Shown piece after piece: positions 1 through 58,496 of a DNA stretch of 64,000 bases. Both the position numbers and the translations under genes were made by a program. Position 1 is the stretch's first letter; each line of letters starts with the position of its first letter. The stretch is taken from the NCBI RefSeq assembly GCF_001697225.1, contig NZ_CP014671.1, positions 1,054,001 through 1,118,000 on the forward strand. The letters run 5' to 3'. This DNA comes from Immundisolibacter cernigliae. GTDB lineage: Bacteria; Pseudomonadota; Gammaproteobacteria; Immundisolibacterales; Immundisolibacteraceae. The notes beneath the pieces were generated by a model. It ran no database searches and was not told the DNA's origin. It worked only from the letters and a program-made list of their open reading frames with translations.

Positions 1-518
1 GGCAGGGTGGCGGCCAGGGCCGCCAGTTCGCCATATCCGAGCGCCTGCCCGGTCGGCCCCAGCACCTTGCCAGCCGCCGTGCGGCAGGCGGTCGGTTCGA
101 CCTGCCAGGTACGGGCGGCGGCCGCCACCAGCATGGCGCGAGCGCTGGCCGCGGCGTCCGCCAGGGCATCCCAGGACATGCGGATGCTGGTGCTGCCGCC
201 GGTGCCCATCATGCCCATGGCCAGGTAATAGGCCGGGTCTTCGTCGGCCATGGTCAGGCGCACCGAGGCCAGATCCACGTCCAGCTCGTCGGCCAGGATG
301 GCGGCAAGGCCGCTGTGTACGCCCTGTCCCATCTCGGACTTGTGCAGCGTCAGCGTGACCGCGCCGTCGCTGGCGATGTGCACGAACGCATTGGGCGCAA
401 GCGCAGATTCGGATGTCGACCCGGCTGCCCCCGCCAAGGGCAGGCGCAAGGCCAGGCACAGCCCGCCGGCCAGGCTGGCGCCGCTGGCCAGAAACGCGCG
501 GCGACTCAGGGCGACCAT
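1..518 (-). CDS. Molybdopterin-binding subunit of an isoquinoline 1-oxidoreductase-like dehydrogenase (5' part only)
   Basis: Large catalytic subunit of a molybdenum hydroxylase of the IorB type, which oxidises N-heteroaromatic or aldehyde substrates in the periplasm or at the membrane. Only the first ~172 codons lie in the window; the gene runs off the left edge. The N-terminus has a twin-arginine signal (SRRAFLA) followed by a hydrophobic stretch ending around AGA. The mature part begins with the family's characteristic segment containing KSEMGQGVHSG and the ADEDP motif. The ATG lies one base after the stop of the 2Fe-2S subunit, so the two form an operon. The substrate cannot be inferred from the sequence. 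Confidence 0.87.
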   Translation of the reverse strand, partial: MVALSRRAFLASGASLAGGLCLALRLPLAGAAGSTSESALAPNAFVHIASDGAVTLTLHKSEMGQGVHSGLAAILADELDVDLASVRLTMADEDPAYYLAMGMMGTGGSTSIRMSWDALADAAASARAMLVAAAARTWQVEPTACRTAAGKVLGPTGQALGYGELAALAATL

Positions 519-519
519 G

Positions 520-984
520 TCAGGCCGGCTCCCGCGCCAGTACGGCGGCGCGCTTCACGGCCTGCCGAATGCGCTGGTAGGTGCCGCAGCGGCACAGGTT
601 GCCGCGCAGCGCAGCATCGATGGCCGCATCGTCCGGATCAGGCGTGCGCGCCAGCAGCGCCGTCGCAGCCATGATCTGCCCCGACTGGCAATAGCCGCAC
701 TGCACCACGTTCAGCTCCATCCAGGCGCGCTGCACGGGGTGACTGCCTTCGGCCGGCAGGCCCTCGATCGTCGTCACCTGCCGCGCGCCGACGGCAGCCA
801 GTGGCGTCATGCAGGCCGGCGCGGGCTGACCATCCAGGTGCACCGTACAGGCCAGGCACTGCCCCACCCCGCAGCCGAACTTGGCGCCGGTGAGCCCCAG
901 ATCCTCACGCAGCACCCACAACAGGGGCTTGTCCGGCTCGGCATCGACCTCGAAGGTCTTGCCGTTCACATGCACGCGGGTCAT
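520..984 (-). CDS. [2Fe-2S] subunit of an isoquinoline 1-oxidoreductase-like dehydrogenase
   Basis: Small iron-sulfur subunit that passes electrons from the molybdenum centre. It is 154 residues long, the usual length for IorA. The N-terminal plant-ferredoxin-type domain carries Cys38, Cys43, Cys46 and Cys58. The C-terminal alpha-helical [2Fe-2S] domain carries CGYC (Cys96/99) and CRC (Cys131/133), so all eight ligands are present. I chose the ATG at 984 because an AGGTGGAG ribosome binding site sits about six bases upstream; the upstream in-frame GTG at 996 lies inside that site. It is followed directly by the molybdopterin subunit. No FAD subunit is visible here, as is normal for this two-subunit subfamily. 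Confidence 0.92.
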
Positions 985-1107: not shown

Positions 1108-2295
1108 ATGAGCGACAGCCGGAGTCAACTCGCCGGATTGATCGAAGCCGCCCATCGCATCGGCGAGCGTGCGGCCACGGAAGCCGATTCCGCCGACCGC
1201 AACCGGCGCCTGTCGGACGAGCTGGTCACCGACCTGGCGCACGCCGGGCTGATCGGCATGCTGCAGCCGCGCCGCTGGGGCGGGCTCGAGGTGTCGTTCC
1301 CGGACTTCGTGCGCGTGTCGCAGGTGCTGGCCCGCTACGACGTCGCGACGTCCTGGGTGCAGGTGCTGCTGGGCTGTCATCACTGGTGGGGCGCGCTGGT
1401 CGGCGAGGAACTGCAACGCGAGCTGTGGGGCGACAACCCGCACCGACTGTTCGCGGACGTGTTCGCGCCCATGGGCGACCTGCGCCACGCCAGCGACGGT
1501 CTGCATCTGTCCGGACGCTGGATGTTCGCCTCCGGCGTGCACTGGTCGGACTTCGTGGCGTTGGGCGCCAACGGCCCCCTGACGCCGGGCGGCGAGCCCG
1601 AATACCTGATGCTGTTCGTGCCCAAGGCAGATTTTCGCGTCGTCGAAGACTGGGACACGGTCGGCCTGCGCGGCACCGGCTCGTGCTCGGTGGAGGTGAC
1701 GGACGCGGTCATCCCGCCGCAGCGGGTGGTGCGCATGGGGCAGATGATGGCCACCGGCACGGCGCCCGGTCAGGCCCTGAACCCCGGGCCAATTTATCAG
1801 GTGCCGTTCGCCGCCGGCCTGTCGATTGCGCTGGCTCCCACCAACGTCGGTGGTGCGCAGGGCATGCTGGCGGCCTTTGGCGAGCGCATGCGCGCACGCA
1901 CGCCGCTGTTCAGCGCCCAGCGGCAGGACGCGCTGGTCACCTCGCAGGTACTGCTGGCGGAAAGCGCCGTGCGCGTGGACGCCATGGAGCAGCTGATGTA
2001 CCGCTATGCCGACGCGTTGCAGGCCTACGGCAACGGCGGGCGGGAGATGGACACGCTCGAGCTTCGGCTGCGCAGTTTCGCCTGGCGCGCCTGGCTGGGC
2101 CGCGAGGCGCGCGACATCGTCACCCAGCTGTTCACCCACACCGGCGCAACCGCCATCTACGGCGGCAACGCCCTGCAGCGGCGCTGGCGCGACCTGCACG
2201 CCATGGCCCAGCACGTGGTGCTCAATCACGAGACGGCCAGCCGCAACTTCGGCCGCTACCTGGCCGGCCAGGACCCCGAACCGGCTCTGTACTGA
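1108..2295 (+). CDS. Acyl-CoA-dehydrogenase-fold flavin-dependent monooxygenase (HsaA/DszC-like)
   Basis: A 395-residue member of the acyl-CoA dehydrogenase superfamily, in the branch of two-component flavin monooxygenases (HsaA, DszC, HpaB-C2 type) that use reduced flavin from a separate reductase to hydroxylate aromatic or sulfur heterocyclic compounds. Features seen: N-terminal helical domain, the GLIGMLQPRRWGG segment near residue 50, a central beta domain with VGLRGTGSCSVEV, and a C-terminal four-helix domain with FTHTGATAIYGG and a basic RRWRDLHAMAQH tail. That tail is typical of the monooxygenases rather than of true dehydrogenases. A strong AGGAGGA lies seven bases before the ATG. It is divergent from the molybdenum hydroxylase genes. 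A flavin reductase that could serve it is at 41.2-41.7 kb. The substrate is unknown. Confidence 0.85.
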   Translation: MSDSRSQLAGLIEAAHRIGERAATEADSADRNRRLSDELVTDLAHAGLIGMLQPRRWGGLEVSFPDFVRVSQVLARYDVATSWVQVLLGCHHWWGALVGEELQRELWGDNPHRLFADVFAPMGDLRHASDGLHLSGRWMFASGVHWSDFVALGANGPLTPGGEPEYLMLFVPKADFRVVEDWDTVGLRGTGSCSVEVTDAVIPPQRVVRMGQMMATGTAPGQALNPGPIYQVPFAAGLSIALAPTNVGGAQGMLAAFGERMRARTPLFSAQRQDALVTSQVLLAESAVRVDAMEQLMYRYADALQAYGNGGREMDTLELRLRSFAWRAWLGREARDIVTQLFTHTGATAIYGGNALQRRWRDLHAMAQHVVLNHETASRNFGRYLAGQDPEPALY

Positions 2296-29307: not shown

Positions 29308-30526
29308 GGAAACGCTGATCAATCCCCGAAACCAGCGCTATGGACATGACGGCGCTGACGCGTGACCGCCCCTGGGGAAAAACGGCCCGTTTTCGGGTGT
29401 GGATCGGGCCAATGTGCGTGTTCTGGCCGGATATTCCGGTTTTGGGCTCCCTCAGGACGCACGGAGGGTGTGCCGCGCCCGAAGGCGCCAGCCGGCAATC
29501 ACCACGTTGGCCAGGCCGAACAGCGTGAACAGCTGCGCCTGGTTCTTGGCCAGCCCCCGGTAACGCGCCTTGCGGTGCTTGAACAGGTTCTTGATGATGT
29601 GAAACGGATGCTCGACCTTGGCCCGCAGGCTCGCCTTGACCTGTTCGATCCGTTCCTGCAGGCGGCCCAGCGCGTCATCGGGCAGGGCCCGGCGCACGCC
29701 CGGGCGCAGCGCCACGTGCCAGGTGACCGGCGTGTCCCGATTCTCCGGGCGCTTGGCTACGCCCTGGTAGCCGGCATCGCCCAGCGCGTCCGTTTCCTGC
29801 CCGTGCAGCAGGGCGTGCGCCTGGGTCACGTCGTTGACGTTGGCCGGCGTGGTCAGCACCGTGTGCACCAGCCCCGAGTCCAGGTCGACCCCGATGTGCG
29901 CCTTCATGCCAAAGTGCCACTGGTTCCCCTTCTTGGCCTGATGCATGTCCGGATCGCGCGCCCGGTCGCGGTTCTTGGTCGACGGCGGGGCGGCGATCAG
30001 CGTCGCATCCACGAGGGTGCCCTCACGCAGCAGCAGGCCCTGGCGGGCCAGGTGATCGCGAATCGTCTCGAAGATCACCCGGCTCAGACCCTGATCTTCC
30101 AGCAGGCGGCGGAACTTCAGCAGCGTGGTCGCATCCGGCGCCGCCTCGCGGGCCAGGTCGATGCCGATGAAGCAGCGGATGGCGTGGCTGTCGTACACGG
30201 CGTCCTCGATGCCCTCGTCCGACAGCCCAAAGCACTGCTGCGCCACGTACATGCGCAGCATGCGCGACAGCCCCAGCGGCGGGCGGCCCGGGCCCTTGCC
30301 GGCCGGGTAGAACGGCGCCAGCGCCGCCTCCAGCTGCGCCCACGGCGTCACCGCCTGCAGCTGCGCCAGGAAGCGCTCGCGGCGCGTCTGCTTCTTCTTG
30401 CCGGCGTACTCGAGGTCGGAAAAGCTCGTTTGCATGACGTCTGCTCACCACCGCTGCGGACCAGGTCACATTGTCTCAGGACCAAGGTCTCATGCCTCCA
30501 ACGGGAGGGAATAAATCAGCGTTTCC
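29308..30526 (-). mobile_element. IS5-family insertion sequence, first of two tandem copies
   Basis: About 1219 bp, bounded by terminal inverted repeats that begin GGAAACGCTGAT at both ends and flanked by TTAG on each side (29304-29307 and 30527-30530), the 4-bp target duplication expected for this family. It carries a single transposase gene on the minus strand. It differs from the second copy by one C in a C-run near the left end (four against five). Confidence 0.92.
29452..30435 (-). CDS. IS5-family transposase (copy 1)
   Basis: A 327-residue DDE transposase identical in sequence to the copy at 30.7-31.7 kb. An N-terminal IS5-type domain (GLSRMLRMYVAQQCFGLSDEGIEDA) precedes the catalytic core: Asp143 (TLVDATLI), Asp220 (LGDAGYQG) and Glu275 in the family motif KVEHPFHIIK, with the expected basic residues after it. 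It is full length with no frameshift, so probably active. Transcription would start from the right-hand end, next to the junction with copy 2. Confidence 0.95.
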   Translation of the reverse strand: MQTSFSDLEYAGKKKQTRRERFLAQLQAVTPWAQLEAALAPFYPAGKGPGRPPLGLSRMLRMYVAQQCFGLSDEGIEDAVYDSHAIRCFIGIDLAREAAPDATTLLKFRRLLEDQGLSRVIFETIRDHLARQGLLLREGTLVDATLIAAPPSTKNRDRARDPDMHQAKKGNQWHFGMKAHIGVDLDSGLVHTVLTTPANVNDVTQAHALLHGQETDALGDAGYQGVAKRPENRDTPVTWHVALRPGVRRALPDDALGRLQERIEQVKASLRAKVEHPFHIIKNLFKHRKARYRGLAKNQAQLFTLFGLANVVIAGWRLRARHTLRAS

Positions 30527-30530
30527 TTAG

Positions 30531-31750
30531 GGAAACGCTGATCAATCCCCCGAAACCAGCGCTATGGACATGACGGCGCTGACGCGTGACCGCCCCTGGG
30601 GAAAAACGGCCCGTTTTCGGGTGTGGATCGGGCCAATGTGCGTGTTCTGGCCGGATATTCCGGTTTTGGGCTCCCTCAGGACGCACGGAGGGTGTGCCGC
30701 GCCCGAAGGCGCCAGCCGGCAATCACCACGTTGGCCAGGCCGAACAGCGTGAACAGCTGCGCCTGGTTCTTGGCCAGCCCCCGGTAACGCGCCTTGCGGT
30801 GCTTGAACAGGTTCTTGATGATGTGAAACGGATGCTCGACCTTGGCCCGCAGGCTCGCCTTGACCTGTTCGATCCGTTCCTGCAGGCGGCCCAGCGCGTC
30901 ATCGGGCAGGGCCCGGCGCACGCCCGGGCGCAGCGCCACGTGCCAGGTGACCGGCGTGTCCCGATTCTCCGGGCGCTTGGCTACGCCCTGGTAGCCGGCA
31001 TCGCCCAGCGCGTCCGTTTCCTGCCCGTGCAGCAGGGCGTGCGCCTGGGTCACGTCGTTGACGTTGGCCGGCGTGGTCAGCACCGTGTGCACCAGCCCCG
31101 AGTCCAGGTCGACCCCGATGTGCGCCTTCATGCCAAAGTGCCACTGGTTCCCCTTCTTGGCCTGATGCATGTCCGGATCGCGCGCCCGGTCGCGGTTCTT
31201 GGTCGACGGCGGGGCGGCGATCAGCGTCGCATCCACGAGGGTGCCCTCACGCAGCAGCAGGCCCTGGCGGGCCAGGTGATCGCGAATCGTCTCGAAGATC
31301 ACCCGGCTCAGACCCTGATCTTCCAGCAGGCGGCGGAACTTCAGCAGCGTGGTCGCATCCGGCGCCGCCTCGCGGGCCAGGTCGATGCCGATGAAGCAGC
31401 GGATGGCGTGGCTGTCGTACACGGCGTCCTCGATGCCCTCGTCCGACAGCCCAAAGCACTGCTGCGCCACGTACATGCGCAGCATGCGCGACAGCCCCAG
31501 CGGCGGGCGGCCCGGGCCCTTGCCGGCCGGGTAGAACGGCGCCAGCGCCGCCTCCAGCTGCGCCCACGGCGTCACCGCCTGCAGCTGCGCCAGGAAGCGC
31601 TCGCGGCGCGTCTGCTTCTTCTTGCCGGCGTACTCGAGGTCGGAAAAGCTCGTTTGCATGACGTCTGCTCACCACCGCTGCGGACCAGGTCACATTGTCT
31701 CAGGACCAAGGTCTCATGCCTCCAACGGGAGGGAATAAATCAGCGTTTCC
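30531..31750 (-). mobile_element. IS5-family insertion sequence, second tandem copy
   Basis: About 1220 bp, in the same orientation as copy 1 and separated from it by only TTAG. It is followed by another TTAG (31751-31754). The junction of the two copies (30517-30540) is a perfect palindrome of two facing 10-bp ends around TTAG. No cargo lies between the copies. Confidence 0.92.
30676..31659 (-). CDS. IS5-family transposase (copy 2)
   Basis: Identical 327-residue transposase to copy 1, lying exactly 1224 bases further on, with the same DDE residues (Asp143, Asp220, Glu275). Either copy could mobilise both elements, and possibly the short repeats in this region that share the IS ends. Confidence 0.95.
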   Translation of the reverse strand: MQTSFSDLEYAGKKKQTRRERFLAQLQAVTPWAQLEAALAPFYPAGKGPGRPPLGLSRMLRMYVAQQCFGLSDEGIEDAVYDSHAIRCFIGIDLAREAAPDATTLLKFRRLLEDQGLSRVIFETIRDHLARQGLLLREGTLVDATLIAAPPSTKNRDRARDPDMHQAKKGNQWHFGMKAHIGVDLDSGLVHTVLTTPANVNDVTQAHALLHGQETDALGDAGYQGVAKRPENRDTPVTWHVALRPGVRRALPDDALGRLQERIEQVKASLRAKVEHPFHIIKNLFKHRKARYRGLAKNQAQLFTLFGLANVVIAGWRLRARHTLRAS

Positions 31751-32555: not shown

Positions 32556-32633
32556 ATGAAATATTCAATGGTTTTTGTTGCGCTGATGACCGTGATTGGA
32601 ATTGGCGCATGTGACCGGCAGCCGGCGACTACC
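32556..32633 (+). pseudogene. 5' part of a collagen-like lipoprotein gene split by an IS481 element
   Basis: An ATG preceded by AGGAG begins a lipoprotein leader: a short hydrophobic region with lipobox IGAC (Cys19), then DRQPATT. The IS481 element follows at codon 26. The remainder of the gene is found in the same frame at 33720, and joining across one copy of the 6-bp target duplication gives an uninterrupted frame of 111 residues. Confidence 0.82.
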
Positions 32634-33600
32634 TGTCACGTCCCGGCCGATTATTTGGCCTTCGATGAAACAGCTCCGGTTTTGAAGCGTACCAGTGCTG
32701 AAGCGCTTGAGCCGGAGTCTGGGCGTTCAGTGCCTTCTGCGGCAAGTGGTGGTTGTAGAGCGTGACATAGCGGTGCAGGGTCTGCTCCAGGTCCTCGCTG
32801 GACCTGAAGTGGTGCGTGCGCAGCAGGTCCGCGATGCGCCCGTTGAAGCGCTCGACCATGCCATTGGTCTGCGGGTGGCGCGGGGGCGTCAGACGGTGCT
32901 CGATGCCCAGTTCCTGGCACAGGCGATCGAACTCATGCGTCCCGGTCGGGGCCCGCGCCCGGCTCCCGAACAGCCGGTCCGTGAACTCGGTGCCGTTGTC
33001 GGTGAGCAGGCGCGTGATGCGCACCGGGCAGGCCGTGGCCAGGGCACTGAGGAAGGCGCGCGCCGAGCGCGCGCTCTTGTCGGCTTTCAGGGCCACGTAA
33101 ACCCAGCGGGTGGCCCGATCGATGGCCACGAACAGGAACCGGCGCCGGTCCTCGTCGGCCATCTGCGGCAGGTACTTCACGTCGACGTGCACAAAGCCGG
33201 GCACGTAGGTCTTGAAGGTCTTGCTGACCGCTTTGTCCGGCGCCGGGCGCAGGGCGCGCAGGTTGCCCACGCCGTGGCGGCGCAGGCAGCGGTCCAGCCC
33301 GGAGCGGGACACGTCCGGACACAGGAACTCGCGCGTCACCGCCAGCAGGTCGTCCAGCGGCAGCAGCAGGGCCCGGCGCAGGTAGACCACGATCGCCTCC
33401 TGGCCGGGGGTCAACGTCGTTTGCAGGCGGTGCGCGGTGTGCGGCCGGTCGTAGACATCCGGGCGCCGCTTCCATTTGTAGATCGTCGGCTCGGTGACGC
33501 CAAAGCGGCGGGCCAGCACCGCCACCGGCTCATCACTGGCCGCGATCTGCGCCCGCACGTGGGGCGTGGTGCGGGCTTGTTTGTGCAGTGCAATCAGCAT
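32629..33600 (-). CDS. IS481-family transposase
   Basis: A 323-residue transposase. An N-terminal helix-turn-helix (about 24-46; [16 protein letters not shown]) precedes an integrase core with Asp140 (HVDVKYLP), Asp201 (LLTDNGTEF) and Glu250 (NGMVERFNG). It is full length for the family and probably functional. The frame runs through the left inverted repeat: the last sense codon takes two bases and the TAG stop all three from the flanking duplicated target (32629-32633), so the exact C-terminus depends on the insertion site. Confidence 0.94.
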
Positions 33601-39568: not shown

Positions 39569-40444
39569 ATGACCGCCGGACTGGAACTTGCTTATCTGGG
39601 TTTCGAGGTATCCGACCTGCCCGGCTGGGAGGCTTTGCTGACCAGTGTCATCGGCATGACCGGCAACGGCGTCAACGCTGACGGCTCGCGCGGCTACCGC
39701 ATGGACGAGTGCGAACAGCGGCTGTTCCTGCGTCCCGGCAGCCAGGACGACGTGGCGGCGGTGGGCCTGGCGGCCCTCAACCGCGGCGAATTCGATGCCG
39801 CGCTGGGCCGCCTGAAGGCCGCCGGGGTGGCCGTGCACAAGGGTGACGACAGCGCCTGCCGCGCCCGTCACGTGACCGAACTGGTCAGCTTCAGCGACCC
39901 GTCCGGCAATCCGCTGGAACTGTGTCTGGGCCAGCGCGTGGCGGCGACGGCGTTTGCCTCATCGGTCATGCCAGGCGGCTTTGTGACCGGCGACATGGGC
40001 ATGGGCCACATCGTTCTGGTGACGCAGGATCTGGAGCCGACGCTGCGTTTCTATACCGACGTGATCGGCATGGCCGTGTCGGACCGCGGCGCCGAAGAAT
40101 GGGCGGGGCTGACCATCGAGGCAGTGTTCCTGCACTGCAACCGCCGCCATCATTCGATTGCACTGGGCGCCGGCATTCCGCCGGTCAAGCGCACCGCGCA
40201 TTTCGAGATGCACGTGCCGGACATCGACGCCGTGGGTTTGGCCTGGGATCGCGCGCGCGCCGCCGGGGTGGAAATCACCCACCTGCCCGGCCGCCATACG
40301 GACGACGTGTTCTCCTTCTACGGCCGCACGCCGTCGGGTTTCGAGTGGGAGATCGGCACCGGCGGCTACGATGTTGGCCCCAACTGGCGTCAGCGGCATC
40401 TGACGCGCTTCACCGCCTGGGGACATCAGCCGCCGGCGAGCTGA
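39569..40444 (+). CDS. BphC-type extradiol ring-cleavage dioxygenase
   Basis: A 291-residue two-domain vicinal-oxygen-chelate dioxygenase of the 2,3-dihydroxybiphenyl 1,2-dioxygenase class, which cleaves catechol rings beside the hydroxyl pair. Iron ligands are His147 (GMGHIVLV), His211 (TAHFEMH) and Glu261 (FEWEIGTGG), matching the spacing of BphC (146/210/260). Active-site His195 (RRHHSIAL) and Tyr251 (FSFYGRTPSG) are also present. It is single, without an adjacent hydrolase or ferredoxin. Upstream GGGGGAG serves as ribosome binding site. The substrate is likely a bicyclic or polycyclic catechol (inference). Confidence 0.92.
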   Translation: MTAGLELAYLGFEVSDLPGWEALLTSVIGMTGNGVNADGSRGYRMDECEQRLFLRPGSQDDVAAVGLAALNRGEFDAALGRLKAAGVAVHKGDDSACRARHVTELVSFSDPSGNPLELCLGQRVAATAFASSVMPGGFVTGDMGMGHIVLVTQDLEPTLRFYTDVIGMAVSDRGAEEWAGLTIEAVFLHCNRRHHSIALGAGIPPVKRTAHFEMHVPDIDAVGLAWDRARAAGVEITHLPGRHTDDVFSFYGRTPSGFEWEIGTGGYDVGPNWRQRHLTRFTAWGHQPPAS

Positions 40445-40445
40445 A

Positions 40446-40606
40446 GGCAGCGCTGCATGAATCCATCGGGGATTTCGCAACGCCCGCTGCCGAAAAACCT
40501 TGTAGCGCAGCTTTGCTGCGCGATGATCGCCCGGCATAGCCGGGCTCCTACATCCGCTGATCTTGACAGCGCGTCCCTGCGCTGCGGGAACGCTTCCGCG
40601 TTTCCC
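40446..40606 (+). repeat. MITE-like dispersed repeat, copy C
   Basis: Forward copy: GCTGCATGAATCCATC at the left, GCGCAGCTTTGCTGCGC hairpin and GATGATCGCCCGGC near 40505-40540, GCTGATCTTGACAGCGCGTC, GCTGCGGGAACGC and a right end CGCGTTTCCC next to the stop of the SRPBCC gene. It fills the gap between two convergent genes, and its hairpins could also act as transcription stops. Confidence 0.78.
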
Positions 40607-41028
40607 TAACCTTCGAGCACTGCCTTGGCGCCGGCCAGCCCGCCCTGATAGATGCTGGTGATGAAGGCCACCGCGTCCACCGGCGCGTCCTTCAGCGGCA
40701 GGAACTCGGCGGTCCAGGTGATCCGCGCCCCGCTGCCGGCCGGGCTCACCGCCAGCCGCGACCGATAGTCGGTGCACGGCAGCGCACCGGCGATGACCAC
40801 GTACTCGTAACAACGGGCGGCATCGTCGCGCGCCTCCTGGCGCTCGGTCAGCTGATTCCCGTCGGGCATGGTCAGGTGGCGCAGCGCGCCCACACCGCTG
40901 CCCTCGACGGTGCTTTCGGTCACCGCCGGAAACCAGCCGACCAGGCCGCCGAAATCGCCGACCAGCGCCCAGGCCTCGTCCGGGGATGCGTTCACGTCAA
41001 TGGTTTCGGTCACCGTCGCCTTGCTCAT
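40606..41028 (-). CDS. SRPBCC (START/Bet v1-fold) family protein
   Basis: A 140-residue single-domain helix-grip protein (ATVTETIDVNASPDEAWALVGDFGGLVGWFPAV at the start, ITWTAEFLPLKDAP later, C-terminal helix FITSIYQGGLAGAKAVLEG). The family binds hydrophobic ligands; members include polyketide cyclases and carrier-like proteins. Its location with a flavin reductase, a desulfinase-like gene and an extradiol dioxygenase suggests aromatic metabolism, but no catalytic residues identify a reaction. GGAGGAGCAC precedes the ATG. Confidence 0.85.
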   Translation of the reverse strand: MSKATVTETIDVNASPDEAWALVGDFGGLVGWFPAVTESTVEGSGVGALRHLTMPDGNQLTERQEARDDAARCYEYVVIAGALPCTDYRSRLAVSPAGSGARITWTAEFLPLKDAPVDAVAFITSIYQGGLAGAKAVLEG

Positions 41029-41118: not shown

Positions 41119-41177
41119 CGTGTAGGAGCCCGGCTCAGCCGGGCGATCATCGCGCAGCAAAGCTGCGCCTAAAACCC
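41119..41177 (-). repeat. MITE-like dispersed repeat fragment, copy D (reverse orientation)
   Basis: Only the central hairpin pair of the family is present (TAGGAGCCCGGCTCAGCC, GGGCGATCATCGCGCAGC, AAAGCTGCGC), in the opposite orientation to copy C. It lies between the SRPBCC and flavin reductase genes. Confidence 0.7.
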
Positions 41178-41195: not shown

Positions 41196-41684
41196 TCAGT
41201 CCGCCACGGTCTTGTAGGCACTGCGAAAGTACAGCAGCGGCGGCAGCGGCTCGCCAACTGCGGCCTGTTCGATCTGGCCAACCAGGATCACGTGGTCGCC
41301 GCCGTCGTAACTGTTGCGCAGCGTGCAGTCCATGTGGCCGATCGAGCCCTCGACGATCGGTGCGCCGGTGACGCCCGGATGGGTGAGGACGCCGTCCATC
41401 TTCTCCGGTCCGCCCTTCTTGGCCAGGCGGTTCGAGATGTCCTGCTGGTTTTCGGCCAGGATGTTGATGCTGAAGGCGCCGGCGGCCTCGATGACCTTCA
41501 GGGTCTCGGACTCCCGGATCAGCGCGAACAGCGCCAGCGGCGGGTCCAGCGACAGCGAGCTGAAGGAGTTGACGGTGATGCCGTAGCGGCGGCCTTGCGT
41601 GTCGGTGGCGCACACCACCGTGACCCCGGTGCAAAACTGGCCGAACACCTGGCGCAGGGCCTTGGGGTCGAGCGGGCTATTCAT
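41196..41684 (-). CDS. Flavin reductase (HpaC/DszD-like) for a two-component monooxygenase
   Basis: A 162-residue flavin reductase-like domain: QFCTGVTVVCATD, the flavin-binding RRYGITVNSFSSLSLDPPLALFAL, SINILAENQQDISNRLA and the C-terminal GDHVILVGQIEQ block. Such enzymes reduce FMN or FAD with NAD(P)H and supply it to a monooxygenase, which here could be the acyl-CoA-dehydrogenase-fold protein at 1.1 kb or one outside the window. It is downstream of the DszB-like gene on the same strand with a 40-base gap, so probably co-transcribed. Confidence 0.9.
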   Translation of the reverse strand: MNSPLDPKALRQVFGQFCTGVTVVCATDTQGRRYGITVNSFSSLSLDPPLALFALIRESETLKVIEAAGAFSINILAENQQDISNRLAKKGGPEKMDGVLTHPGVTGAPIVEGSIGHMDCTLRNSYDGGDHVILVGQIEQAAVGEPLPPLLYFRSAYKTVAD

Positions 41685-41724
41685 GGTGGAAAGTTCCTGC
41701 TTGGGCTGTTGATTTCTGGAAGGC

Positions 41725-42777
41725 TCAGTCCGGCCAGGCGATGCCTTCGGCCGCATACGCCTCGCGCAGCAGGTCGGTGGCCAGCCAGTCGCGGGTCGGG
41801 AAATTGTTTTCGATGAAGCCGTGCGCGTGCAGGAAGCTTTTCATGATCTCCAGCGTCTCGATCAGGCGCATGCTCAGTTCGGGCTTCAGCTTCTGGTGCA
41901 AATCGGCGGTGTAGTAGGTGTCGATGTCTGCCGGAGTGACACCGGTTTCCAGCGCCAGGGCTGCTGTCGCCGCGACCTTGTTCTCGGGCTGCGCCGCCCA
42001 GGTGGCGGCCTTCAGCAGCGTGCGGGCGTAGCGGATCACCATGTCGGGCCGCTCGCGGACCAGCGAATTGCTGACCGTCAGCAGGCGTGGGGTGGCGTTG
42101 TTGACCTTGGCCCACAGCGGCTTGGCCTCGATCAGGTTGTACAGCATGCGGATGCCGCCGCCGGACTCGCGCTGCATGGCGGCAATCTCGCCGCCCTTGG
42201 CGAAGAATGCATCCACCTTGCCGTCCAGCAGCGCCTGCATCTGGCAGTTGTAGTAGGACGGAATCTGCCGAGCCTCGGCATCCGCAAAGCCCGGGTTCAG
42301 CAGCTGGTAGTGATCGCCGGTTTCCACCACGTCGGTGAACGCGGCATCCGCCTCGTGCAGACCGTGCAGTTCCAGTGCCGACACGAATGCCTTTTTGGCC
42401 GCGAAGCGGAAGAAATTCATGACCAGCCTGGGCCACACCGGCAGCGCCAGACGCTTGCCGGCCAGATCCCGCACCGAGTGGATGGGGTCATCCGCCCGCA
42501 CGAACAGGCCCAAGGTCTCCTCGACGAAGCTGATGCCCAGCAGCGACGTATCCGCCCCGCGCGAGCGCGCCCACACCGGCGGCGAGCCGCCGCCCTCGCG
42601 GAATGAATCTTCCAGCGTGTGGGCGAAATGCGTGTCCGAGTTGGCGCGGCCCAGCTCCTTGATGTTGCGCACTTCGCAGTCGGTGCCGACGAATTCGCTG
42701 TCGAACAGCTTGCGCTGATAGGCGATGCCGGACGCGGTCGGCACCGGGCAGCGGGTGTACCAGATGGTGCGGGCCAT
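41725..42777 (-). CDS. DszB-like (2'-hydroxybiphenyl-2-sulfinate desulfinase family) protein
   Basis: A 350-residue protein of the NMT1/THI5-like periplasmic-binding fold but without a signal peptide or ABC transporter partner. The N-terminus TIWYTRCPVP resembles the DszB segment around its catalytic cysteine, and THFAHTLEDSFREGGGSPP aligns with the DszB His60-Arg70 region with the same ten-residue spacing; by this comparison (from memory) Cys10, His50 and Arg60 match DszB Cys27, His60 and Arg70. DszB removes sulfite from an aryl sulfinate in dibenzothiophene desulfurisation. The flavin reductase downstream supports an enzymatic role. Whether the substrate is a sulfinate is not shown; a binding-protein role remains possible. 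Confidence 0.75.
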   Translation of the reverse strand: MARTIWYTRCPVPTASGIAYQRKLFDSEFVGTDCEVRNIKELGRANSDTHFAHTLEDSFREGGGSPPVWARSRGADTSLLGISFVEETLGLFVRADDPIHSVRDLAGKRLALPVWPRLVMNFFRFAAKKAFVSALELHGLHEADAAFTDVVETGDHYQLLNPGFADAEARQIPSYYNCQMQALLDGKVDAFFAKGGEIAAMQRESGGGIRMLYNLIEAKPLWAKVNNATPRLLTVSNSLVRERPDMVIRYARTLLKAATWAAQPENKVAATAALALETGVTPADIDTYYTADLHQKLKPELSMRLIETLEIMKSFLHAHGFIENNFPTRDWLATDLLREAYAAEGIAWPD

Positions 42778-42820: not shown

Positions 42821-43960
42821 TCAGACGCCGATTTCGAGTTCGTGATGGAAGGCGAAATCCGGATCGCCGAAGGCGCGTACCTTGTCGCGCAGGTCCGGGC
42901 GGTCCAGGAACACCAGCCGGCCGGCGTCCCACAGCTTCTCGCCATCGAACTCGATGGTCGGATCGACCACCGGAATCGACATCTCGCCCGGCTGCACCGG
43001 GCCGATGGTGTGGAAATGCACGATGCGCGGGTTGGCGTGAACCATGTACATCCACTGGTCCAGACCCTGTTCGGGCCCGGCCGTGACGGCGCAGCGCGGG
43101 TTGATGCCGGCGTGCCAGGAATTGACGATGTAGGGCTCCTTGCCCATCTCGCTGCCGCATTTTTCCATGTAGGCGCGCAGCTGGGCCACCGCTTGCGACT
43201 CGCCGTCGAAGCCGGTGATGCGGCCCTTGTCGATCTGGATCATGACCGGACTTGGCAGGGCAATGCCGTTGGGCTCGAACACGTGCACACCGGACGGCGT
43301 CAGCCAGCGCACGGCAAGGCGACCGCTGGCCTGCATGCTGTCGAAGACCTGGCACACGCCCAGCGGAAAGGTGCGCAGCGTGAAGCCGTCGCCGGTGGCC
43401 TTGGCGTCGGTCCTGGCCGGCTTCGGCGACTGGCCCGGCTGCGGGATCGGGCCGGACAGGTCGCTGCCCAGCGGGCAGGTGATGCGCCAGCCTTTGGCCG
43501 ATCCCAGGCGCGGGCCGAGGTTCTTGAGCACTTCCAGCCATACGTTGTACGGCACCTGCCCGAACGGCGAGCCCAGCTGGTCCCAGGTCTGCAGAAAGTT
43601 CAGCATCTTCATGCCGCGACCGTTGAACGGCACCATGCGCAGCACGCCGGCGATCATGTGGTTGAAGATGGTCACGTCCGGCGACTCGAAGGCCTTGACC
43701 ACGGACGGCGGCATGTCCTCGGGGCCCTTGACGGTGTCGGTCCACATCACGTGCACGCGCCCGCCCAGCTTGCGCGCCTCGTCCTCGATGACGTCCGAGG
43801 CGGCCGGTTCGGTGATGCCGTTCTCGTTCAGGATCAGTACTTCATCGCCGGCCTTCATCTGGCAGCCGTCGATCAGCATGTTGCGCGCCGCGCGGCGCAC
43901 GTCCTGTTCCGAATACTTGCGGTGACTGGCGTCGAAATTGAAGCGTTCCAGGGTGCCCAT
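42821..43960 (-). CDS. NicX/M29-aminopeptidase-like metalloprotein
   Basis: A 379-residue protein whose N-terminal half (NMLIDGCQMKAGDEVLILNE, VIEDEARKLGGRVHVM, SPDVTIFNHMIAG) resembles the M29 aminopeptidase / 2,5-dihydroxypyridine 5,6-dioxygenase (NicX) fold. In the C-terminal half, SWHAGINPRC and IVHFHTIGPVQPGEMSIPV lie where NicX has its metal ligands. NicX cleaves a dihydroxypyridine ring; M29 peptidases cut peptides. Its position at the head of a minus-strand operon with a DszB-like gene and flavin reductase favours ring catabolism, but the reaction is undetermined. GAGGAGGAA lies eight bases before the ATG. Confidence 0.7.
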   Translation of the reverse strand: MGTLERFNFDASHRKYSEQDVRRAARNMLIDGCQMKAGDEVLILNENGITEPAASDVIEDEARKLGGRVHVMWTDTVKGPEDMPPSVVKAFESPDVTIFNHMIAGVLRMVPFNGRGMKMLNFLQTWDQLGSPFGQVPYNVWLEVLKNLGPRLGSAKGWRITCPLGSDLSGPIPQPGQSPKPARTDAKATGDGFTLRTFPLGVCQVFDSMQASGRLAVRWLTPSGVHVFEPNGIALPSPVMIQIDKGRITGFDGESQAVAQLRAYMEKCGSEMGKEPYIVNSWHAGINPRCAVTAGPEQGLDQWMYMVHANPRIVHFHTIGPVQPGEMSIPVVDPTIEFDGEKLWDAGRLVFLDRPDLRDKVRAFGDPDFAFHHELEIGV

Positions 43961-47620: not shown

Positions 47621-48415
47621 TCAGAACCTCAGCACGTCGAGCATGCGCAGGCCCGCCGTCCCCAGAAACACGGCAAAGAGGCGCTTGAGTGTCACCACCG
47701 GCAGGCTGTGTGCCAGGCGCGCACCCAGCGGCGCGGTCAGCACCGATGCCCCCGCGATACCGATGAACGCCGGCAGATACAGATAACCGATGGCGCCGGC
47801 CGGCAGCCCCGCATGATCGCGCCCCGCCCACAGGAACACCGCCGCCCCGATCACTCCCAGCACCAGACCGCAGGCCGACGAGGTGGCTACCGCCCGGCGC
47901 ATGTCCACCCGGCAGTAGTTCAGAAACGGCACCGTCAGGCTGCCGCCGCCGATGCCGAGCAACGTCGACAGGGTGCCGATCACGGTGCCTGTGGCCAGCA
48001 GACCGGCGGTGCCCGGCAGCGGCCGACGACCGGGCGCGGTGGCGTTGAAGAAAATCTGCGTCGCCACGCAAATCACGAATACCCCGAACACGCGGCTGAG
48101 CAGCGCGCTGGGTAATTTGTCCGCCAGCCAACCACCCAGCACCGCGCCCACCGCCAGACCCGGCAGCAGCCGGCGCACCAGCGGCAGATCCACGGCGCCG
48201 CGCCGGTAGTGCGCATAGGTGGACGACATCGAGGTCGGCACGATCACCGCCAGCGAGGTGCCGATCGCCAGGTGCATCAGCACCTCGGACGGAATGCCCA
48301 GCAGCGGAAACACCAGCGCCAGCGCCGGCACGATCACCACACCGCCGCCCAGACCCAGCATGCCGGCGATCAGCCCTGCCAGCACGCCGACCGCAAGGTA
48401 AGCAAGCAGGATCAC
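47621..48415 (-). CDS. TSUP-family (TauE/SafE) membrane permease
   Basis: A 264-residue membrane protein with about eight transmembrane helices in two repeats, each carrying the family glycine motif (GMLGLGGGVVIVPAL and LLGIGGGSLTVPFLN). TSUP proteins move sulfite, sulfoacetate or other small sulfur or organic anions. No substrate marker is visible in the neighbours. Export of sulfite released by the DszB-like enzyme 5 kb away is a speculation. It converges with folA. Confidence 0.9.
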   Translation of the reverse strand: MILLAYLAVGVLAGLIAGMLGLGGGVVIVPALALVFPLLGIPSEVLMHLAIGTSLAVIVPTSMSSTYAHYRRGAVDLPLVRRLLPGLAVGAVLGGWLADKLPSALLSRVFGVFVICVATQIFFNATAPGRRPLPGTAGLLATGTVIGTLSTLLGIGGGSLTVPFLNYCRVDMRRAVATSSACGLVLGVIGAAVFLWAGRDHAGLPAGAIGYLYLPAFIGIAGASVLTAPLGARLAHSLPVVTLKRLFAVFLGTAGLRMLDVLRF

Positions 48416-56306: not shown

Positions 56307-57614
56307 ATGGACATGGCCACCCGCTCGTCACTGATCGACTACGCCGCCCTGGTGCGGCCGGACCGCGTGCACGGCAGTCTGTACACGGACCCCGCCATCT
56401 TCGAGGAAGAGCTCAGCCGCATCTGGTACCGCGAGTGGGTGTTCGTGGGCCACGAGAGCGAGGTACCGAACATCGGCGACTACCGCACCGGCCTGCTCGG
56501 CCAGCAGCCGATCCTGATCACCCGCGGCAAGGACATGCAGGTGCGGGTGATGCTCAATCGCTGCACGCACCGTGGCAACACCATCTGCCAGGCGCGCCGC
56601 GGCAACGCGCAGACCTTCACCTGCTCCTACCACGGCTGGACCTACAGCTGCGAAGGCGATCTGAAGGGCATCCTGTTTCGCGAGGACTACCCCGCCGACT
56701 TCAGGCGCGAGGAGCACGGCCTGTTTCGCGTGCCGCGGGTCGAGCTTTATCGGGGCTTCATCTTCGCCAGCATGGGCAAGACCGGCAAAAGCCTGCAGGA
56801 ACACCTGGGGCCGGCCGCCGCCAACATCGACCGCTTCTGTGATCTTTCGCCGACCGGCGAGATCACCATGAACCACGGCGTCTACCAGATGCGCATCGAG
56901 TGCAACTGGAAGATGTGGATGGAGAACTCGGTCGACTCGTACCACGTCTACCAGACTCACGGCTCGAACATGTACCTGGGCAACATGTTCGAGGCCAAGG
57001 AAGGCCAGAAACCGCCGCCGCCGGGCAAGGGCTATTTCGGCCTGATTCACGCCCGTGACCTGGGCAACGGCCACTCGGACCTGGACATGCGCCCGCAGCG
57101 GCGGGTGACCGGCATGACCTACACCGGCGAGTGGTCGAACGAGATTCCAGAATCCGCCCAGCGCGAGTATCTGGCCGGCCTGGAGCACCTGCACGGCAAG
57201 GACAAGGCCAATCAGATACTCACCGAAGGCCCGGCGCACACGGTGATCTTTCCGAACCTGTTCAACATGCTGCAGGAAATCCGCTGGTGCGTGCCGGTCA
57301 GCGTGAACGAGACCTACATCTACTACGCGCCGTGCCTGTTCAAGGGCGCGCCGGACGCCATCAACACCGCCCGCCTGCGCCGTGACGAGGGCGCCTACGG
57401 CCCGGCCGGCTTCCAGCTGGCCGACGACATCGAGGTCTGGGCGCGCAACTACCAGGGCCTGGCTGCACGTTCCCAGGAATGGATACTGATGAACCGCGGC
57501 CTGCACCTGCCGGTGACTCCGGACGAGGATGGCATCCCCTACCAGGGCGATCTGAGCGAGCTGACCATGCGCTCGCAGTGGCGCCATTACCTCGAACTGA
57601 TGAGCAACCCCTGA
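56307..57614 (+). CDS. Rieske non-heme iron aromatic ring-hydroxylating dioxygenase, large (alpha) subunit
   Basis: A 435-residue catalytic subunit that adds both atoms of oxygen to an aromatic ring. The Rieske [2Fe-2S] ligands are Cys86-x-His88 and Cys106-x2-His109 (RCTHRGN, CSYHGWTY). The catalytic iron ligands are His213 and His218 with bridging Asp210 (ENSVDSYHVYQTH), and an acidic pair at 373-374 probably holds the carboxylate ligand. The small-subunit gene follows 15 bases on, so it is an alpha-beta enzyme. The substrate is unknown; relatives act on PAHs, biphenyl-type or benzoate compounds. GAGGAGCCC precedes the ATG. Confidence 0.95.
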   Translation: MDMATRSSLIDYAALVRPDRVHGSLYTDPAIFEEELSRIWYREWVFVGHESEVPNIGDYRTGLLGQQPILITRGKDMQVRVMLNRCTHRGNTICQARRGNAQTFTCSYHGWTYSCEGDLKGILFREDYPADFRREEHGLFRVPRVELYRGFIFASMGKTGKSLQEHLGPAAANIDRFCDLSPTGEITMNHGVYQMRIECNWKMWMENSVDSYHVYQTHGSNMYLGNMFEAKEGQKPPPPGKGYFGLIHARDLGNGHSDLDMRPQRRVTGMTYTGEWSNEIPESAQREYLAGLEHLHGKDKANQILTEGPAHTVIFPNLFNMLQEIRWCVPVSVNETYIYYAPCLFKGAPDAINTARLRRDEGAYGPAGFQLADDIEVWARNYQGLAARSQEWILMNRGLHLPVTPDEDGIPYQGDLSELTMRSQWRHYLELMSNP

Positions 57615-57628
57615 GCAGGAGCGCGCAG

Positions 57629-58111
57629 ATGCCTTTCGATCGCTACGCCGTGGAGCAGTTCCTGTACCGCGAGGCGCGCCTGGCCGACGAGCAGCGCCTG
57701 GACGACTGGCTCACCCTGTGGGACGAGGACGCCCTGTACTGGGTGCCCTGCAACCAGGACGACGTCGACCCGGCCCGGCAACTGTCCATCATCTACGACG
57801 ACCATGCGCGTCTTCGCCTGCGCGTGGCGCGCATCACCAAGACCGGCATGGCGTGGACGCAGGAACCGCGCTCGCGCCTGCGCCGGCTGGTGTCCAACAT
57901 CGAGATCTACGACGGCCCGGACGGCTTGATCCAGACCTTCTCCAACTTTCACCTGACCGAGCTGCGCGTGAACCGGCGCGACCCGGTGGAGTGGATCGGC
58001 CGCACCGAGCACCGCCTGCGGCCGCACGGTGACGATTTCAGGCTGGCCTTCAAGAAGGTCATGCTGATCAACAACGACCACGAAATGACGCAGCTGTCGT
58101 GCATGGTGTAG
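57629..58111 (+). CDS. Aromatic ring-hydroxylating dioxygenase, small (beta) subunit
   Basis: A 160-residue cone-shaped SnoaL/NTF2-like subunit: EQFLYREARLADEQRLDDWLTLWDEDALYWVPCNQDD and RLVSNIEI, with the C-terminal LAFKKVMLINNDHEMTQLSCMV. It stabilises the alpha3-beta3 hexamer and has no catalytic residues. AGCAGGAG lies eight bases before the ATG; the operon continues with a rhodanese gene 31 bases later. Confidence 0.95.
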   Translation: MPFDRYAVEQFLYREARLADEQRLDDWLTLWDEDALYWVPCNQDDVDPARQLSIIYDDHARLRLRVARITKTGMAWTQEPRSRLRRLVSNIEIYDGPDGLIQTFSNFHLTELRVNRRDPVEWIGRTEHRLRPHGDDFRLAFKKVMLINNDHEMTQLSCMV

Positions 58112-58142
58112 CGTTGCCGGCCGCCCAGCCCGGAGTATTCGC

Positions 58143-58496
58143 ATGACGCGCTATCAGGCCCTGCTGCAGGACGCCAAGACCCGCATCCGTGAAATCGGCA
58201 TCGACGATCTGCACACCCAGGCCGCGGGTCTTGGCCTGCTGATCGACACCCGCGAGCCGGCCGAGTGGGCCGAGGGCCACATTCCCGGCGCAACGCCGAT
58301 ACCGCGCGGGATCCTGGAAGGCAAGATCGAGCAGCTGGCGCCGGATGTCGACCAGCCCATCGTGCTGTACTGCGCCTCCGGCGGACGCTCGGCGCTGGCC
58401 GCCGACAGCCTGCAGCGCATGGGTTATCGCAAGGTGCTGTCCCTGGCCGGTGGCTTCAACGCCTGGCGTGACGCCGGGCATCCGCTGCAGCGCTAG
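58143..58496 (+). CDS. Single-domain rhodanese (thiosulfate sulfurtransferase-like)
   Basis: A 117-residue rhodanese fold: LLIDTREPAEWAEGHIPGATPIPRG, the active-site loop CASGGRS with a nucleophilic Cys near residue 79, and the closing LAGGFNAWRDAGHP. It moves sulfane sulfur. It lies between the Rieske dioxygenase genes and a large Fe-S flavoprotein in the same direction, perhaps assisting cluster assembly (inference). Confidence 0.93.
   Translation: MTRYQALLQDAKTRIREIGIDDLHTQAAGLGLLIDTREPAEWAEGHIPGATPIPRGILEGKIEQLAPDVDQPIVLYCASGGRSALAADSLQRMGYRKVLSLAGGFNAWRDAGHPLQR

Follow-up and report, generated by a model that had tools for sequence, protein, structure and literature searches.

A predicted DszB-family enzyme encoded in a conserved operon with an M29/NicX-like protein and a flavin reductase in Immundisolibacteraceae

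The literature searched presents DszB as a dsz-operon enzyme, prized in biodesulfurization yet limiting there because it is slow. The enzyme of Rhodococcus IGTS8, 2'-hydroxybiphenyl-2-sulfinate desulfinase (PDB 2de2/2de3), acts by electrophilic aromatic substitution with a cysteine proton, and an H60-S25 dyad stabilises the resulting thiolate; roles have likewise been described for Cys27, His60, Arg70 and the RxGG motif (PMC6100217). The genus Immundisolibacter was described from PAH-contaminated soil and has many ring-hydroxylating dioxygenases (PMC9535955). Searches of a literature library returned no report of DszB-like genes lying outside dsz operons. Here, we describe a DszB-like protein, DszBL, encoded in a 64,000-nucleotide stretch (the window) of the Immundisolibacter cernigliae genome, which is a single contig of 3,243,537 bases. 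DszBL shares with DszB full-length homology, the fold, the Cys/His/Arg residues and RxGG, and it is predicted to be cofactor-free and cytoplasmic like its counterpart. Its identity to the DszB of pMyong1, which sits in a real dszABC operon, is about 26%.

An earlier note on this DNA had proposed a 350-residue DszB-like enzyme operonic with a flavin reductase (FR) outside any dsz operon. Both reading frames were confirmed, 40 bp apart, and the proposed arrangement holds (Table 1). The note's account of the operon was incomplete, as it left out M29L, which lies upstream of DszBL on the same strand after a gap of 43 bp, and the SRPBCC gene, which starts 167 bp downstream of FR. The latter is probably a looser operon member; it is kept within the genus (G000, G001 and G002) and was not found in the second genus of the family, where about 1.0-1.5 kb downstream of FR was inspected. 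The convergent extradiol dioxygenase gene scored 242 bits against the NCBIfam model for biphenyl-2,3-diol 1,2-dioxygenase, under the cut-off of 366. Upstream of the operon, trmB, thiG, thyA and folA look like housekeeping genes from a reading of their translations. Promoter and terminator scans gave no signal above chance.

Table 1. Features of the DszBL locus and of the distant flavin monooxygenase gene, in window coordinates
Feature	Coordinates	Strand	Description
M29L	42821..43960	-	379 aa; M29 aminopeptidase/NicX superfamily (predicted); first operon gene; no Pfam or NCBIfam match
DszBL	41725..42777	-	350 aa; predicted DszB-family enzyme; Cys10, His50, Arg60, Gly62-Gly63
FR	41196..41684	-	162-aa flavin reductase, PF01613, HsaB/HpaC-like; Pfam E 1.2e-41
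SRPBCC (Polyketide_cyc2) gene	40606..41028	-	Pfam E 1.7e-27
BphC/HsaC-like extradiol dioxygenase (VOC)	39569..40444	+	convergent neighbour, outside operon
HsaA-type flavin monooxygenase	1108..2295	+	39 kb from DszBL operon; NCBIfam HsaA 251 bits

Several other elements were recorded in the window. A 20-base repeat core occurs as inverted exact copies on either side of the SRPBCC gene (40515-40534 and 41139-41158) and in five copies in the window, where 0.02 would be expected, as REP-like elements. Two transposase-like genes (29452-30435 and 30676-31659, minus strand), both of 327 aa with an identical N-terminus and spaced by 1224 bp, are followed by an IS481 transposase at 32629-33600, and the first kind recurs at about G000:C1 1043600. 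A TauE/SafE-like gene 5 kb upstream of the operon (47621-48415) was considered as a sulfite exporter and not adopted, given that the family is common and that thyA and folA intervene.

The homology of DszBL to DszB extends over almost the whole protein. A phmmer comparison gave an E-value of 3.6e-17 over residues 4-339, whereas the best sulfonate-binding protein reached 0.65; the resemblance is therefore not due to chance. A profile of 22 DszBL relatives matched DszB with an E-value of 3e-44, SsuA with 1.4e-4 and 4,5-dihydroxyphthalate decarboxylase (9jp7) with 0.23. The AlphaFold model of DszBL, built from 40 sequences, reached a pLDDT of 94.4; its top three PDB matches in Foldseek were DszB structures (E about 4e-22 to 2e-21, the best 4.2e-22; TM about 0.73), and SsuA came next at 5.5e-17. 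Grouping with transport binding proteins, the outcome that the earlier note had named as speaking against its proposal, was seen neither in the phmmer and profile searches nor in the tree or Foldseek.

The catalytic residues, which that note had read by position from the motifs YTRCPVP (Cys10), THF (His50) and FREGG (Arg60, ten residues after His50), were borne out by a full-length alignment with DszB (PDB 2de2), in which Cys10, His50 and Arg60 fall on Cys27, His60 and Arg70, and Gly62-Gly63 on RxGG. These five DszBL residues are invariant in two alignments of 22 and 40 homologues. The Cys/His/Arg/Gly-Gly set occurs in all 50 DszB-like rows of a residue table and in none of the six others aligned, namely two SsuA proteins, a Pht5-like protein and a further three NMT1 proteins from the window's genome. 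Thr8 of DszBL sits at the position of DszB Ser25 and retains the hydroxyl group. With a dN/dS of about 0.17-0.19, DszBL evolves under purifying selection.

Family labels point elsewhere at first sight. NCBIfam gives DszBL an SsuA-like label at 56.6 bits, under the cut-off of 163.5. Authentic DszB likewise receives the SsuA label below the cut-off, at 65 bits, and SsuA/NMT1 labels on DszB-like proteins are thus uninformative about transport. In the fold model, strand 1 begins at residue 3, so that a leader is absent, and no ABC transporter genes were found in the neighbourhood; the earlier note's observation of neither signal peptide nor transporter genes is upheld. From the sequence and profile matches, the fold, the tree and the conserved residues, we are highly confident that DszBL is a DszB-family enzyme, with predicted catalysis, and not a binding protein; a role as a transport protein was rejected on tree, residues and fold. 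Nevertheless, the fold is common to SsuA and TauA, and the SsuA-like label could be taken to favour a non-catalytic cytoplasmic binding or sensor protein. We consider this very improbable in view of the invariant catalytic residues, the missing leader, the identical sub-cut-off label on DszB itself and the absence of a transporter or regulator gene beside DszBL.

The M29L-DszBL-FR unit is conserved in all seven Immundisolibacteraceae genomes with a match, across two genera and at 50-94% identity. The M29L-DszBL pair is found as well in L048, a MAG whose title reads Deltaproteobacteria (DAHVFB010000043.1) and which the tree tool assigns to Myxococcota; its neighbours there include a close DszB and genes for an isochorismatase, a four-domain rhodanese protein and Rieske dioxygenases. 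The close DszB homologue there (L048:2277-3362; PDB 2de2 E 4e-89) has no dszA adjacent. In the second genus of Immundisolibacteraceae, DszBL paralogues flank genes for a DHDPS-type aldolase and for the alpha and beta subunits of a Rieske dioxygenase, and in G002 molybdenum-hydroxylase genes follow directly after the DszBL operon. Genes in the low-GC relatives were called as longest ORFs. The window's own genome carries a 45% DszBL paralogue (G000:C1:1174787-1175806). Elsewhere in the window, ring-hydroxylating dioxygenase alpha and beta genes are followed by a rhodanese-domain gene (56307-58496, plus strand), and a pair homologous to these dioxygenase genes adjoins DszB-like paralogues in L033/L056. 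A shortened DszB-like gene of 113 aa, comprising the N-terminal third, lies beside a UbiD-family gene at about G006:C13 9372-9620 (L044:7373-7714) and may be a copy in decay or an artefact of assembly.

Beyond this family, at least 529 confirmed candidates for DszB-like proteins were found in GTDB genomes (L045-L123), with Cys, His and Arg invariant wherever checked. Many of their genes lie in Ssu/LLM clusters, some as two or three adjacent copies, and the proteins, where annotated, are mostly called 'ABC transporter substrate-binding protein'. At 49 of the 65 loci outside the window's clade, monooxygenase genes of the LLM/SsuD/NtaA or acyl-CoA-dehydrogenase-like kinds lie within about 6 kb, a count that rises to 56 when Ssu-type transporter genes are included; organosulfur genes occur at 2 of the 14 loci of the window's clade and an Ssu-type transporter at none. 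The wider DszB-like family thus looks like one of organosulfur scavenging, and the DszBL clade like one of aromatic catabolism. Because the sister families lie mostly in organosulfur clusters but the DszBL clade does not, the leaving group of DszBL is not fixed by context.

The partner M29L is assigned to the M29/NicX superfamily by profile and model comparison. Aligned with NicX relatives by hhalign, it gave a probability of 98.0 and an E-value of 1.6e-13, and its N- and C-terminal halves could both be aligned; the NicX query used to gather these relatives was identified by a PDB search as 7cn3 (E 1.6e-243). The M29L model is too poor (pLDDT 48) to be relied on by itself, and its five best Foldseek PDB matches are all M29 aminopeptidases. 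Its first PDB matches by sequence, to phosphoglucomutase (E 0.017-0.3), were rejected as chance. The iron ligands of NicX are H265, S302, H318 and D320 (PMC7910607). These positions are not conserved as His/Ser/His/Asp in the aligned M29L, and a true NicX was rejected on this ground. M29L has its own conserved residues, His283, His315, His317, Glu326 and Asp333, and is read as a predicted metal enzyme. Its paralogues lie beside Rieske oxygenase genes in the window's genome and in marine Rhodobacterales. One such paralogue (G000:C1:2773930-2775012) stands by a Rieske-type oxygenase, a SnoaL-like beta subunit and a hydroxyacid-dehydrogenase-like gene.

The flavin reductase scored 154 bits against NCBIfam HsaB, under the equivalog cut-off of 230. 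It needs a monooxygenase partner, and none is encoded in the operon. The earlier note had named an HsaA/DszC-type monooxygenase at 1.1 kb; this is its window coordinate, and the gene, about 39 kb away, was rejected as part of the operon. Its scores favour HsaA (cut-off 450) over DszC (31.7 bits, cut-off 850), although neither cut-off is reached, and its best PDB match is the 3-HSA hydroxylase; it is one candidate partner for FR. Genes for the large and small subunits of a molybdenum hydroxylase of the isoquinoline/aldehyde oxidoreductase type (3-984, minus strand) are divergent from it. The genome yielded no DszC homologue exceeding 30% identity. Its sole DszA-like gene (45%; G000:C1:1948081-1949397), of the NtaA/DmoA family, is isolated in a housekeeping neighbourhood with carotenoid, purF and trp genes close by. 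A full 4S pathway in this genome was rejected on these grounds. Of the carbon-sulfur or related aromatic cleavage route suggested earlier, the DszB-family enzyme outside the dsz operon stands, and a 4S-like route is unsupported.

As we infer the chemistry, substrate, partner roles and order of steps, DszBL would be an enzyme of the cytoplasm that needs no cofactor, is built on a periplasmic-binding-protein fold and takes an aromatic or heteroaromatic sulfinate. Cys10, the counterpart of DszB Cys27, would give a proton to the ring carbon bearing the sulfinate, and His50, perhaps together with Thr8 at the Ser25 position, would stabilise the thiolate; Arg60 and the RxGG loop would hold the sulfinate, and SO2/sulfite would be expelled. 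M29L would probably open the ring or catalyse a hydrolysis with the help of a metal, and FR may feed an unlinked flavin monooxygenase, in a setting of thia- or other hetero-arene catabolism in a PAH degrader.

We lean towards SO2 from an aromatic sulfinate as the leaving group. The full-length homology to DszB, the model of pLDDT 94 with DszB as its best Foldseek match, and catalytic residues that are invariant in the family and absent from transport relatives all point this way, as do the published cysteine-proton mechanism (PMC6100217) and the hydroxyl kept at the Ser25 position. The organosulfur genes at 56 of 65 sister loci, the L048 pair near close DszB, rhodanese and Rieske genes, and the retention of the operon under purifying selection are consistent with it. 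Against it stand the scarcity of organosulfur genes in the window's own clade, the genome's lack of a dszC-like gene above 30% and of a linked dszA, and near-catalytic residues unlike those of authentic DszB. Moreover, the paralogues by DHDPS-type aldolase and Rieske genes are placed where a decarboxylase fits equally. Such a decarboxylase, using the same cysteine-proton chemistry to release CO2 from a hydroxylated or heteroaromatic carboxylic acid of PAH or N-heterocycle breakdown, is the main rival and in our judgement possible though rather unlikely. The clade's neighbours speak for it, being ring-hydroxylating dioxygenases, a DHDPS-type aldolase, isochorismatase- and cyclase-type hydrolases, a UbiD-like protein and molybdenum hydroxylases, not sulfur genes; SO2 and CO2 would be chemically similar leaving groups, and 4,5-dihydroxyphthalate decarboxylase, which has the same fold, is among the weak profile matches. 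However, that match (E 0.23) compares with 3e-44 for DszB, and the Cys/His/Arg residues are missing from the single Pht5-like protein in the alignment. We know of no member with the Cys-His-Arg set that is a decarboxylase.

A desulfinase or C-S lyase acting on an aliphatic or small organosulfur compound for sulfur scavenging, as the sister families probably are, appears improbable for DszBL. The SsuABC-type transporters and FMNH2-dependent monooxygenases of the sister families and the flavin reductase in the DszBL operon would suit such a role, but the DszBL clade has neither transporter nor linked monooxygenase, its neighbours are aromatic-catabolic, and protonation of a saturated carbon would be a different chemistry. 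With the aromatic desulfinase still preferred, we put forward only tentatively, and with considerable doubt, that M29L-DszBL-FR may form an undescribed C-S (or C-C) cleaving hetero-arene module of PAH-degrading Immundisolibacteraceae, independent of the 4S pathway, in which a DszB-type enzyme would remove ring SO2 or CO2 by protonation and a new M29-superfamily metalloenzyme would open the ring.

A large and widely distributed family carries the DszB catalytic residues. Because NCBIfam yielded no model for DszB, and DszB itself scores only as SsuA-like, DszB-like members are named transport proteins; bond-breaking enzymes of the DszB type are probably far commoner than gene names indicate. If members such as DszBL are active, they would offer new scaffolds for desulfination or cofactor-free decarboxylation and would imply that a PAH specialist degrades heteroaromatic pollutants through a step not yet characterised.

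Among described proteins, SsuA and TauA, which bind sulfonate and taurine, have the fold in common with DszBL and score weakly against its profile, but they are exported transport proteins without the Cys/His/Arg set and lie far outside DszBL in the tree. The match of 4,5-dihydroxyphthalate decarboxylase to the DszBL fold superfamily is weak and partial, covering a short stretch; an identification of DszBL with this enzyme failed the sequence similarity test, and a possible chemical parallel is what the two may share. NicX, 2,5-dihydroxypyridine 5,6-dioxygenase, resembles M29L in a motif of the same region (SHxGWG against NSWHAG). The DszB-like proteins of rhizobia, Burkholderia, Pseudomonas and Streptomyces, encoded in Ssu/LLM/acyl-CoA-dehydrogenase-like clusters, are 33-39% identical to DszBL and share its invariant residues, including YTRC and HFxH; their genes have sulfonate-type transporters and monooxygenases adjacent, whereas those of the DszBL clade do not. 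Authentic DszB has dszA and dszC as partners, whereas DszBL is accompanied by M29L and FR and does not lie between dszA and dszC. In the ML tree, IGTS8 DszB, pMyong1 DszB and the second L048 gene form one clade (100/99), and DszBL falls in a separate clade (97/93) whose other members come from Immundisolibacteraceae and from a small number of alpha-, beta-, gamma- and deltaproteobacterial MAGs, a placement by which DszBL is judged not to be an orthologue of authentic DszB. Near the catalytic residues, Arg9, His53 and Glu61 of DszBL replace Asn26, Tyr63 and Phe71 of DszB; its substrate is therefore probably different, and these residues suggest a more polar one. Judged by sequence, DszBL is a DszB homologue in a different conserved operon and a separate clade, a known kind of enzyme in a new setting.
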